The notes under the pieces: model-generated | Databases searched by the model: none | Seen by the model: only the letters and a program-made list of their open reading frames with translations | What the model was told of the DNA's origin: nothing | Source: Lachnospiraceae bacterium | GTDB taxonomy: Bacteria > Bacillota > Clostridia > Lachnospirales > Lachnospiraceae | DNA length: 64,000 bases | Assembly: GCA_021202635.1 (NCBI GenBank) | Contig: JAJQCQ010000074.1 | Span: 1-64,000 of the forward strand | Reading direction: 5' to 3' | Position numbers and translations under genes: made by a program | Shown here: positions 2,475-52,201 of the stretch, in pieces | Layout of the letters: every line of letters starts with the position of its first letter | Numbering within the stretch: position 1 is the stretch's first letter

Positions 2475-5405
2475 TTAAGCAACCTGATCGTAGAACTGGC
2501 CATTCACTACATTGAAGGTAGCTCCATCGTACTCATAGGTTCCGGTGTAGGTAGAAAGCTTGCCATTCTCTACAAGGAAGAATGTGTTATCATAGATAAC
2601 TGCTCCCGTATAATCTACAACCTGACCACCTGCAAGATAGTAGAATGTGTCATCTCCACCGATTGCAGAATCATAGAACCACAGTCCGTTTACTTCGTCC
2701 ATCAGACGGCCATAGCAGAAGAGGAACTGAGCTCCATCATAGGTTACCAGACCTGTTACAGACGTATCAAGCTGGCCAGCTGTGATGTAGAACGTCTCAC
2801 CATCATAGATGGTAACACCCGTATACTGGGTCTGGATCTTGCCGTATGCCAGCATATACCAGTTGCCATCGTACAGAGCAAGTCCGTTTGCATCTATGCA
2901 GAGCACGCCGTTTGCTACGAAGTAATATCCGCCATTGTACTCAGCGATTCCGTTGAAGTCTTCCGCCCACTCGTTGTTCACGTAGTACTTGTAGACACCA
3001 TCTTCCAGATAAATACCATTCATTGTAGTTACATCCGGATCATATGCGGTATCCTTGTCAACACGGCCGTTGTAAGCGGTTGAAGATGTATAGTAGTTAA
3101 AGGTCTTGGTCTGCGTTCCAACTACTGTAGCACTTGAGCTCTTATAGCTAAAGGTCAGAGTGATGTAGCCGTTTGCACCATTTGTATCCTGAGCCTGGAT
3201 TGCGTCTACTGTTACAGAGAGACCTGAGGAAGTATTGCTGTTATCGCCCTTAAGGTAAACTTTATTTCCACCGCAGTTCTCGCAGAGTGTATAAACCTTA
3301 ACAGTTACGCCAAGAGTAGAGTCACCCTCGTTTCCGCCACCAATCAGATACGTTGTAACAGTTCCATTCAGGATTGTCTTGTTGCTTACACTAAGGGAAG
3401 AAGCGGTCAGCAGGCTTGAACCATAGTCAACCACCTTGTCACCTGTTACTTCGATATATATCGTGGAAGCACCATTGTTGTTGTAATAATCATCTGTGTA
3501 GTCATCCGATGTTGCATCATAAGAACCATCAATCTCATTCGTATGCGCAAGTCTCGGAATGGTCAAAGATACAGTATCCTCGTACTCATAATCGCAACGT
3601 GTGCACTTGTGAACCTTATCATAGCTTCCAGCGCTCTCGCAGGTAGCCGGTACATAATTCTCAACCGTAACACCGCCATCGTTGTGGCCTCTTGCATCTA
3701 CATCAACTGTATAGGTGTAAACAACGGTCTTGTTGCTGGCCGGCTCAGTTGTGCAGTAGAAGGTTACGGTAACCGTACCGGATGTTGTACAGGTAGAGGT
3801 ATCCGCTGTGATCTCTACATAATCCTCTGTATCATCATCCGTCAGAGCAGCGATCTTGGAGATGATCATGTCTGTTGTAAGCTTTGTTGTGCTGCGGTCA
3901 ATGCTGTTTACATAGCTGTTCAGGCTTCTATATACAGAGCCAAGCCATGTATGAGAACCAGTCTTCGCTGTACCTGTTCCAACGGTAGCAACCTCTGTGT
4001 ATGTGCAGTCCGTATAAACTACTCCGCTAACGATACCATTCCAAACCTGAGAACCTGTGTTGCTGTTTACTTCTACATGCTTCTCATAGGTATGAGAGCA
4101 AGCGGTCAGCGGGCAATTCTCTGCATAGCACTCGGTCACTTCTGTATAGGTGATCGTCGGATAGCATACAGAGCTCTCTACAATCAGGCTGCCGTCACTT
4201 GCATAAGAAATCGTGCAAAGATCCATATCGGTCTGGCTATCAAATACTGCTACATTAATTGTCATATGATGCGCTGCTACAGAAACCTTCTGTGTGCCAA
4301 GTGCAACACCATTCTTGTTGTAATACTGAATCGTGTAGCTTCCTGCTACTGTGCAGTCCGAAAGCTCAACATCCGTATAATCCGGAAGTGTCTCATAGGA
4401 TGTCGCATCTGTTGTCAGAGAAGTCGTGAACTTTCTTCCAGCAAGATTAGCCAATTCAAGGCGATTGCCGTCAATCCAGAAAGCCTCAACGCCGTTGAAG
4501 CTGATGACTTCTGCATAAGCCGCCTGTGTAGAATACTCGGTTACATATTCATAAACCGTCTCTCCGCAAAGAACACAGGTATGCATCAGATAATAGTGGC
4601 CATCATACTCCGGACCTGCCAGCTGTACGTTTCCTGAAGAATCCAGGGTTGCATAGTAAAGGGTCGTGCTGCCGCTGAAGGTGCCTGTCTTAAGGCCATC
4701 AGAGCCAACGATTTCAGTAGATGTACCTACTGTAACCGCCTTGCTGCCAACAACGATGTTGGAAACAGAAGCAGTCTCTGCAACTGCAACGCTCGTTGTC
4801 CAAACATGCGCAGCACCGTCAATCATTTCTGCATCTGTCCAGCCGATTTCCGCGCCGCAGACAGAGCAAACGATTCTGTACTGTACCTGAGCAACATCTG
4901 AGCAGGATACATTTGTTACATTGCCATTCGCATCAAGATAACGAGCAGTTGACGTCACTGTCTCTGTATGAGCAGTTTTTGACAATGTCGTGTCAATCAG
5001 TGTCTGCGTACCATTATGATCCTTCATCACAATTTTAATTGAACCAGTAGCTGAGCATGTCGCTGCTGTATATGTAACAGTCCAGCTCAAGCTGCTCATC
5101 TGTGAGGAAGAACCGGTTCCGGTAATTGTCTCTATGAATGAAGCTTCGTTGTCCTCATTATATGCTACAACCGTAGCCGTAATCGAACTGGAACCATACG
5201 TAATATCCGTTAACTTATACGTATACACCAATTCTTCTACTGTTGCCGGAGTATCAACTGCTTCTGTCTCCTCCGCTTCTACAGCCACCTCAGTTACCGC
5301 CTCGGTAGCTTCCTCTTCCTCCGCATAAACATACGGAGAAAATGCGCTTACAGCCATCAATGCGGACATGGCAAGAGCTGCAAGCTTGGTTCTTTTTAGT
5401 TTCAT
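2475..5405 (-). CDS. Large secreted protein with Cys-knuckle modules and C-terminal wall-binding-like repeats
   Basis: A 976-residue exported protein of unknown function. Residues 1-28 are a Sec signal peptide ending VYA-EEEE; there is no lipobox and no LPxTG anchor. An acidic Thr/Val/Glu linker follows. The body is Ser/Thr-rich beta-type sequence with at least four CxxC knuckles (CSVC, CVLC, CTRC, CENC), several in the TC-x3-G-x7-CxxC...H arrangement seen in Clostridia surface proteins. The last 180 residues are eight repeats of about 22 residues of the form G-x3-YDG-x2-FY-x3-G-x-L, resembling choline or cell-wall binding repeats. This suggests non-covalent surface attachment. AGGAGAGAGG lies just before the ATG. 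A strong promoter, a 200-base leader and a strong terminator suggest high, independent expression. Function and ligand cannot be told from the sequence. Confidence 0.8.
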   Translation of the reverse strand: MKLKRTKLAALAMSALMAVSAFSPYVYAEEEEATEAVTEVAVEAEETEAVDTPATVEELVYTYKLTDITYGSSSITATVVAYNEDNEASFIETITGTGSSSQMSSLSWTVTYTAATCSATGSIKIVMKDHNGTQTLIDTTLSKTAHTETVTSTARYLDANGNVTNVSCSDVAQVQYRIVCSVCGAEIGWTDAEMIDGAAHVWTTSVAVAETASVSNIVVGSKAVTVGTSTEIVGSDGLKTGTFSGSTTLYYATLDSSGNVQLAGPEYDGHYYLMHTCVLCGETVYEYVTEYSTQAAYAEVISFNGVEAFWIDGNRLELANLAGRKFTTSLTTDATSYETLPDYTDVELSDCTVAGSYTIQYYNKNGVALGTQKVSVAAHHMTINVAVFDSQTDMDLCTISYASDGSLIVESSVCYPTITYTEVTECYAENCPLTACSHTYEKHVEVNSNTGSQVWNGIVSGVVYTDCTYTEVATVGTGTAKTGSHTWLGSVYRSLNSYVNSIDRSTTKLTTDMIISKIAALTDDDTEDYVEITADTSTCTTSGTVTVTFYCTTEPASNKTVVYTYTVDVDARGHNDGGVTVENYVPATCESAGSYDKVHKCTRCDYEYEDTVSLTIPRLAHTNEIDGSYDATSDDYTDDYYNNNGASTIYIEVTGDKVVDYGSSLLTASSLSVSNKTILNGTVTTYLIGGGNEGDSTLGVTVKVYTLCENCGGNKVYLKGDNSNTSSGLSVTVDAIQAQDTNGANGYITLTFSYKSSSATVVGTQTKTFNYYTSSTAYNGRVDKDTAYDPDVTTMNGIYLEDGVYKYYVNNEWAEDFNGIAEYNGGYYFVANGVLCIDANGLALYDGNWYMLAYGKIQTQYTGVTIYDGETFYITAGQLDTSVTGLVTYDGAQFLFCYGRLMDEVNGLWFYDSAIGGDDTFYYLAGGQVVDYTGAVIYDNTFFLVENGKLSTYTGTYEYDGATFNVVNGQFYDQVA

Positions 5406-13304: not shown

Positions 13305-13341
13305 ATTTTTCATTCCTTCCCCCATACTTCCCTTACTCAGT

Positions 13342-13413
13342 GTACTATTCAGAACAGCAGGCCACAGACCGCCTTCTCTGTCTTTTCTTTTCGATGCTGT
13401 TCTGAACTGTTAC
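13342..13413. repeat. Family B palindromic repeat, copy 1
   Basis: Bounded by CTATTCAGAACAGCAGG and GCTGTTCTGAACTGTTAC. It fills most of the gap between the L,D-transpeptidase stop codon (which it touches) and murF. Confidence 0.75.
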
Positions 13414-19676: not shown

Positions 19677-19757
19677 TTTTGTACATCTCCTGTCTAAACC
19701 CGCCGCAGGTATACCTGCGCGGTCTGTTTTTGCATTTTTCTGCCGCCTCTGCTTTGC

Positions 19758-19790
19758 TTCCGTTCTAAACAGCAGGCCGCAGACTCCGTT
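19758..19790 (+). repeat. Family B half copy
   Basis: CCGTTCTAAACAGCAGGCCGCAGACTCCG resembles the left arm of the family B repeat at 47959 (TTCAGAACAGCAGGCCGCAGACTGCC). No matching right arm is present nearby. Confidence 0.5.
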
Positions 19791-19802
19791 TCACTTCGGT
19801 CG

Positions 19803-19844
19803 GCGCTAAACGAACGTCCACTGGACGTTCAGCGCCGCTGCTTC
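19803..19844. repeat. Hairpin repeat, unit 1
   Basis: GGCGCT, then GAACGTCCA-C-TGGACGTTC (perfect arms), then AGCGCC. Preceded by cttcggtc, which also precedes unit 2. Confidence 0.75.
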
Positions 19845-19903
19845 GCAGCTATATGCCGCTTCGCGTCATATGTCTGTGGCTCGCTGGGCGTTCTTCGCTC
19901 CGC

Positions 19904-19945
19904 TTCGGTCGGCGCTAAACGGATGTCCACTGGACATCCAGCGCC
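19904..19945. repeat. Hairpin repeat, unit 2 with compensatory changes
   Basis: GGCGCT, then GGATGTCCA-C-TGGACATCC, then AGCGCC. Compared with unit 1, changed bases in the left arm are matched in the right arm, so the pairing is kept. Confidence 0.75.
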
Positions 19946-19957
19946 CGCCCATCTCCC

Positions 19958-20013
19958 GAAATGCAATCTTCCTCCTTTGCCGGCAAGCCGTCAAGGAGGT
20001 ATATTGCATTTCG
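19958..20013. repeat. Long imperfect stem-loop just after hpt
   Basis: CGAAATGCAAT (19958-19968) pairs perfectly with ATTGCATTTCG (20003-20013), with an inner CCTCCTT/AAGGAGG pair. It starts 17 bases past the hpt stop. A T run is lacking, but it could stop transcription or protect the mRNA end. Confidence 0.65.
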
Positions 20014-20029
20014 CTGCTGTTTGGAACTT

Positions 20030-20557
20030 TTAATCCGAAAACTCGACGACGCCGATGAAGGGGAGGTTGCGGTATTTCTGCGCGTAGTCCAGCCCGTATC
20101 CAACCACAAACTCATCCGGAATATTGAAGCAGGTGTAATCCACCACCACCTGGGAAACCCGGCGCTCTGGCTTGTCGAGAAGCGTACACAGACGCAGGGT
20201 TGCGGGATTGCGTTCTTCTAAAATGTGGAGCAGATAGCTCAGCGTGCGCCCGGAGTCGATGATATCCTCCACAATCAGCACGTTCTTCCCGTCCAGCGGC
20301 TCGTCCAGGTCTTTCACGATTCGCACTACTCCGCTCGATTTCGTATCATTTCCATAGCTGCTGACAGACATAAAATCCATTGTAACCGGAACGGTAATCC
20401 GCTTTGCCAGCTCACACATGAAAAATACCGCGCCCTTGAGTACGCAGATCAGATGAACGCTCTTACCCGCATAGTCCTCGCTGATCTGTTTCGCGATCTC
20501 CTCAATCCGCTGGTCTACTTCCTGCTCGGACAGCAGGATTCTGACTTTTTCTTTCAT
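20030..20557 (-). CDS. hpt: Hypoxanthine phosphoribosyltransferase
   Basis: Purine salvage enzyme making IMP or GMP from hypoxanthine or guanine and PRPP. The 175-residue protein has the PRPP loop VLIVEDIIDSGRTLSYL and the SYGNDTKSSG active-site loop. It also has the C-terminal FVVGYGLDYAQKYRNLPFIG. AAGGAGAG lies upstream of the ATG at 20557, and that ATG overlaps the tilS stop codon (ATGA), so translation is coupled. The longer frame to 20689 lies inside tilS and is not real. The tilS-hpt-ftsH order is standard in Firmicutes. Confidence 0.96.
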   Translation of the reverse strand: MKEKVRILLSEQEVDQRIEEIAKQISEDYAGKSVHLICVLKGAVFFMCELAKRITVPVTMDFMSVSSYGNDTKSSGVVRIVKDLDEPLDGKNVLIVEDIIDSGRTLSYLLHILEERNPATLRLCTLLDKPERRVSQVVVDYTCFNIPDEFVVGYGLDYAQKYRNLPFIGVVEFSD

Positions 20558-22117: not shown

Positions 22118-22145
22118 GCACAGACCAGCTATTCTGAATCGTTAC
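22118..22145 (-). repeat. Family B half copy at the end of spoIIE
   Basis: The plus strand reads GACCAGCTATTCTGAATCGTTAC, which is the outer arm of family B in reverse (GTAACGATTCAGAA). It overlaps the spoIIE stop codon at 22142-22144, so the repeat supplies the gene's last bases. Confidence 0.55.
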
Positions 22146-27996: not shown

Positions 27997-28059
27997 GTAA
28001 CGATTCAGAACAGCAGACCACAGGTCTGTGCTTTGTTCGGCTCTGCTCTGAATGGTTAC
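27997..28059. repeat. Family B palindromic repeat, copy 2
   Basis: GTAACGATTCAGAACAGCAG on the left, CTGCTCTGAATGGTTAC on the right, in the leader 31 bases before the ATG of the substrate-binding protein gene. Confidence 0.7.
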
Positions 28060-34771: not shown

Positions 34772-34808
34772 CCCTTTCTTTTCGATGCTGTTCGGAACGG
34801 TTTGATAA
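34772..34808 (+). repeat. Family B half copy after oppF
   Basis: tttcttttcgatgctgttcg is shared almost exactly with the right half of the family B copy at 13342-13413 (ttttcttttcgatgctgttc). The left arm is missing. Confidence 0.55.
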
Positions 34809-47958: not shown

Positions 47959-48010
47959 GTAACGATTCAGAACAGCAGGCCGCAGACTGCCTGCTGTTCT
48001 GAACTGTTAC
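47959..48010. repeat. Family B palindromic repeat, copy 3 (most perfect)
   Basis: 52 bp. TTCAGAACAGCAGGC and GCCTGCTGTTCTGAA are perfect 15-base arms with an 8-base loop, bounded by GTAAC and GTTAC. It starts seven bases after the response regulator stop and could act as a transcript end, but has no T run. Confidence 0.85.
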
Positions 48011-52142: not shown

Positions 52143-52190
52143 GTTACAGTTCAGAACAGCAGGCCGCCTGCCAGGCTGTTCTGAACTGTT
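52143..52190. repeat. Family B palindromic repeat, copy 4
   Basis: GTTACAGTTCAGAACAGC and GCTGTTCTGAACTGTT with an inner GCCTGCCAGG. It lies between the glnQ-type gene terminator and the His-rich GTPase start. Confidence 0.8.
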
Positions 52191-52201
52191 TTCCCTATCA
52201 C

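Follow-up and report, generated by a model that had tools for sequence, protein, structure and literature searches.

Two hairpins between hpt and ftsH in a Lachnospiraceae genome as probable parts of a degraded mobile element carrying a dispersed 55-nt module

Introduction

The genes hpt and ftsH of a Lachnospiraceae bacterium (assembly GCA_021202635.1) lie on the same strand, hpt ending at position 20030 on the minus strand of contig JAJQCQ010000074.1, of which positions 1 to 64,000 were analysed as a whole and are referred to as the window. They are separated by a gap measured at about 353 bases, in agreement with the roughly 350 bases given for it before, which harbors two similar hairpins and a third long stem-loop. 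The initial annotation of this region regarded the hairpins as tandem units of the spacer and argued from changes matched across their stems for selection or copying that preserves the pairing. The locus raises the question whether these structures represent an RNA maintained at this particular place, or whether they arrived as parts of something that is copied throughout the genome.

Results

Two hairpin units as parts of a larger structure

Re-reading the sequence bore out the letters and positions recorded for both units, whose hairpins extend over 19802-19836 and 19911-19945. The repeat shared by the units reaches upstream of the hairpins, covering 53 nt at 85% identity and a spacing of 109 nt, and the unit core, GTCCACTGGAC, is present at two places of the window, where 0.00 occurrences would be expected. 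Exactly two pairs are changed between the hairpins, A-T to G-C and C-G to T-A, and both are fully compensated; the reported matching across the stem therefore holds, whereas the mention of several differing positions was a slight overstatement. The third stem-loop, which pairs 19957-19977 with 19993-20013 at 90% complementarity, was also found as described, 16 bases from the hpt stop codon. A region of 278 nt is folded far better than shuffled sequences, the z-scores being -8.4 for RNA and -10.2 for DNA, and no match to the curated covariance models of Rfam was found in it up to E = 5.

These 278 bases (19756-20033, plus strand), located between the two genes, match a family of elements elsewhere in the genome, here called E. 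The left terminal inverted repeat, GCTTCCGTTCTAAACAGC (19756-19773, plus strand; family consensus GTAACNNTTCAGAACAGC), was recognised by its inverted pairing and by the family ends, and its partner, GCTGTTTGGAACTTTTAA in plus-strand letters (20016-20033, minus strand), overlaps the hpt stop codon. Three arms, all on the plus strand, follow each other between these ends. Arm 1 consists of the 5' stem side GGCCGCAGAC (19775-19784), assigned from the fold and from comparison with intact E, and of the 3' side GTCTGTGGC (19872-19880), assigned from the fold; at its insertion site it carries the first unit as copy 1 of a sequence designated module A (19782-19836; 78.3 bits with the covariance model R1). 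The stem of arm 2, GGGCG (19886-19890) paired with CGCCC (19946-19950), reads GGGCGTTCCGCCC in uninterrupted E, and its loop is occupied by the second unit as module A copy 2 (19891-19945; 83.0 bits with R1). Arm 3 (CGAAATGCAAT / ATTGCATTTCG, 19957-20013), identified as an inverted pair and by comparison with E, is the third stem-loop itself and differs from the family consensus in two pairs, both compensated. There are indeed two copies of the hairpin, yet instead of a simple tandem they form the inner portions of two separate arms within one larger structure with paired outer ends. Both ends of this copy are degraded, and no target duplication is visible at it. On sequence resemblance only, a possible additional E-like arm 3 scrap, GCAGGTATACCTGC, adjoins the ftsH start (19690-19735, plus strand).

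Element E, a dispersed family with inverted ends

At least 43 matches to E were obtained in the window's assembly with the region as query, and at least 74 with a more intact copy. Intact copies, some of them near-identical, measure 176 bp; they occur both here and in sister species, often with exact 8-bp target duplications. They are bounded by GTAACNNTTCAGAACAGC in inverted order and contain three internal arms with the consensus sequences GGCCRCAGAC..GTCTGWGGC (arm 1, itself branched), GGGCG TTC CGCCC (arm 2), and CGAAATGAAAA..TTTTCATTTCG (arm 3). Sequences resembling the ends with up to two mismatches are present at least 246 times in the genome, as compared to 0 matches for a reversed control pattern. 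Among 38 candidates with paired ends, 11 are flanked by a target duplication exact in 8 of 8 bases and 5 by one matching in 7 of 8, the targets being AT-rich, and the same 8-bp duplication flanks copies in sister species. Within the genus, at least 40 of 47 genomes contain E matches. The genome further contains minimal versions (about 50-70 bp), several of them within the window, where four elements of about 50-73 bp with both ends were located (13341-13413, 27997-28059, 47959-48010, and 52143-52192), beside single or degraded ends at 22128-22145 and 34787-34804. No E was found in plasmid or phage records, and the end pattern gave scattered single matches in IMG/VR.

The dispersal, the inverted ends and the 8-bp duplications together constitute the signature of a non-autonomous transposon. 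Element E is short and devoid of coding capacity, and shares with MITEs the terminal inverted repeats, the target duplication of fixed length and the many near-identical dispersed copies; it differs from them in its conserved multi-armed interior and in being itself a target for module A. It therefore looks like a MITE-like non-autonomous mobile element, apparently a new family of a known kind.

Module A and its distribution

Module A is 55 nt long and consists of a leader (NTCTMCGCTYCGCTTC), the sequence CGGTC, a 6-bp stem, a one-sided AARC bulge, a second stem of 8 bp (sometimes 7 bp) and the apex CCACTGG, with the foot GGTC retained in nearly all copies. All counts were derived from R1 and are minimum values. 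The genome contains at least 58 matches; the units are dispersed, and their assignment to the hpt-ftsH spacer as a feature of it did not survive. At least 43 of 47 genomes of the genus carry the module, with up to at least 112 copies per genome, and genomes without any E match are among the module-rich ones (such as G031, at least 110 copies, and G036, at least 100). Across the family it was recorded in at least 130 of the 298 genera sampled (about 44%).

Within E, three sites are used by the module, namely arm 1, the arm-2 loop and arm 3, and one E copy (locus L002, contig C38) is filled at all three. Modules also reside inside other copies of module A (L062, L082, and L331) or stand alone in unrelated places. 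Where two or more copies are neighbors, they are on the same strand in 10 of 11 cases and inverted in one. At least three other, unnamed structured repeat families of sister species were seen to carry module A at a fixed position in each (L321, L322, L324, L325, L328, L333, and L334; L314, L315, L320, L329, and L332; L295-L311). A solo copy at L027 (1481-1535) lies in frame within a long open frame, an apparent CoA-activase gene (Pfam DUF2229), to which it adds about 19 residues. At two loci from two species (L326 and L327, about 150-240), the module appears, to judge from the letters, to break up, at the variable loop, what resembles the 3' half of a tRNA-Pro, and another copy follows shortly downstream; neither ARAGORN nor Rfam called a tRNA there, and six loci outside the window region gave no Rfam match up to E = 1.

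No module A was found in plasmid records, and phage records yielded one 85% match in an unannotated faecal record, while four pattern matches in IMG/VR all failed the covariance model. The open-access literature searched returned no paper describing E or module A. Expansion segments of 5S rRNA were also considered; the insert in the 133-nt 5S RNA of Lachnospiraceae appears much shorter when compared by description (PMC7812874). Module A likewise looks like an apparently new repeat family of a known kind.

Covariation in the repeat and its absence from the spacer of relatives

The covariation noticed in the two units is a strong property of module A at large. In an alignment of 23 copies from this genome, which was not fitted to a model, 96.5% of the pair cells are standard and 8 of the 14 pairs show double changes; the observed covariation score was reached by none of 500 shuffles. 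A second alignment of 70 distinct copies from many species, fitted to the covariance model and hence leaning towards the structure, contains 98.3% paired cells and double changes in 11 of 14 pairs (137 cells). Sliding the partner reduced the paired fraction to 30-41%, and again 0 of 500 shuffles scored as high. The argument for selection or copying that preserves pairing thus stands.

The hpt-ftsH spacers of relatives, fetched by their Hpt and by their names placing the window in Lachnospiraceae, were tested for module A at nine loci (L094-L102), and none of the nine contains it. There is almost no spacer in L096 and L097, and the genome of the former (G010) has many copies of E and module A elsewhere; decayed E scraps are present in the spacers of L094, L095, and L098. 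Pairing, by which the initial annotation wished its proposal to be judged in close relatives, is therefore conserved for the repeat family but not at this locus, and has to be regarded as a property of the repeat rather than of the spacer. Two side observations concern the region behind hpt. In L094, the closest relative (Hpt 97% identical), unrelated palindromic inserts follow the gene (about 3525-3680), which may indicate that this spacer tolerates palindromic inserts generally, and in L100 short units with a consensus near CTCAACGGGAAAAACGCGAAGCATTTTTCCGAGTCTG form a tandem array of their own (about 3525-3900).

Discussion

Very probably, E once inserted immediately behind hpt, and the feature is this old copy, now degraded and carrying two copies of module A; the insertion event of this particular copy is something we infer from the behavior of the E family. 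The initial observation was correct and well argued, but its frame was too small. Being placed between genes of the same strand, E would probably be read through in the hpt-ftsH transcript; nothing in the evidence shows a regulation of either gene by it.

As to its mobility, E would be moved in trans by a DDE-type transposase making a staggered cut of 8 bp. No autonomous transposon with E ends was found at the IS66 loci or in the two inspected cases of paired ends lying far apart in the genome, the latter enclosing ordinary genes. An IS66-family element is a conceivable, if doubtful, mobiliser. IS66 elements have ends that begin with GTAA and generate 8-bp duplications, to which the terminal bases and the duplication length of E correspond, but this genome has no IS66 gene, and the IS66 loci examined in the genus, many of them on short contigs, have no E-like ends nearby, so IS66 found no support as the mobiliser.

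The spread of module A itself is a separate problem. The conservation of foot, bulge and apex, beside stems that vary freely yet remain matched, suggests recognition of the folded strand, and the matched changes would mean that the hairpin, not the letters of its stem, is what the spread must keep. One strand of the module may thus fold into a bulged hairpin (foot GGTC, bulge AARC, loop CCACTGG) before spreading, and some enzyme would then insert it adjoining a GWC/TTC-like trinucleotide, often where the target can fold as well. Comparison of filled and empty sites in E and module A revealed 2-3 replaced bases at the left junction instead of a clean insertion; these sites, and one in the tRNA-like sequence that is presumed to be empty, suggest that the module inserts next to GAC, GTC or TTC. 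On this basis we only tentatively regard module A as a family-wide, selfish 55-nt DNA hairpin handled by an enzyme that reads folded single strands and prefers folding targets. With similar reserve, its targets might comprise arms within other mobile repeats, further copies of module A, and possibly a tRNA-like half gene.

Module A might also manage without a dedicated enzyme, as a passenger of E and other larger repeats that is additionally propagated by recombination or template switching between palindromes; we consider this possible rather than probable. It is known that mutation can correct palindromes through strand switching; template switching would account for the compensated changes as well, and the many copies inside other repeat families and the replaced bases at the left junctions fit the same explanation. 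However, its presence in at least 130 of 298 genera, the solo copies in unrelated places, the modules inside modules and the one in-frame copy in a coding gene argue for an insertion of the module as such. Comparable palindromes are known as Rickettsia palindromic elements, which are longer and occur both in non-coding DNA and in frame inside genes; module A is mostly non-coding, with L027 as the one clear in-frame case. The small dispersed repeats (SDR) of Nostoc are tiny and insert into other repeats by an unknown mechanism. Compared by description, module A resembles them in both size class and habit, and differs in its host, its greater length and its strong hairpin; the Nostoc repeats are named in PMC3116915.

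Mobilisation of module A as a REP sequence by a RAYT (Y1 HUH) transposase, either resident or recently lost, appears rather unlikely, although such a system in outline works like the spread proposed above. Like module A, REPs and REPINs are short, gene-less and intergenic, form bulged hairpins with a tetranucleotide foot, and number tens to hundreds per genome, and the plan of long REPs, with the tetranucleotide directly 5' of a bulged hairpin, is that of the module; a bulged or short-loop hairpin and many intergenic copies are thus found in both. The foot that defines REPs is GT[AG]G (PMC6006769), whereas module A has GGTC and a 4-nt one-sided AARC bulge. The only Y1 gene of the genome is not flanked by the module, which lies within 1.5 kb of Y1 genes at just 2 of 30 Y1 loci scanned. 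Among 43 genomes, Y1 is absent from 9 of 28 with high copy numbers and present in 10 of 15 free of the module, hence without any association, and a resident Y1/RAYT protein was accordingly rejected as the mover. Copies of module A are mostly single or on the same strand, which does not correspond to the inverted doublets of REPINs. Moreover, REPs are described as species-specific (PMC6006769), whereas module A is one family recognisable across 130 genera. Since two defining features, the foot and a linked RAYT, are lacking, module A was not filed as a REP.

A structured RNA specific to this locus, such as a small RNA or an element processing or stabilising the mRNA, kept by selection on pairing, is very improbable in spite of the strong folding of the transcript strand and the compensated changes, because these units are found at dozens of unrelated sites elsewhere, module A is missing from the relatives' spacers (two of which hardly exist), and Rfam gave no match.

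For the degraded E copy with its two modules, the general lesson is that covarying hairpins in one spacer are no proof of a local RNA, as the covariation here belongs to a mobile repeat. What makes the finding interesting is that module A has spread across the family with no mover in sight. The hosts of the module are common gut bacteria, and a 55-nt sequence of this kind in about 44% of the sampled Lachnospiraceae genera could affect genome assembly, the false discovery of RNA motifs, and mRNA structure.
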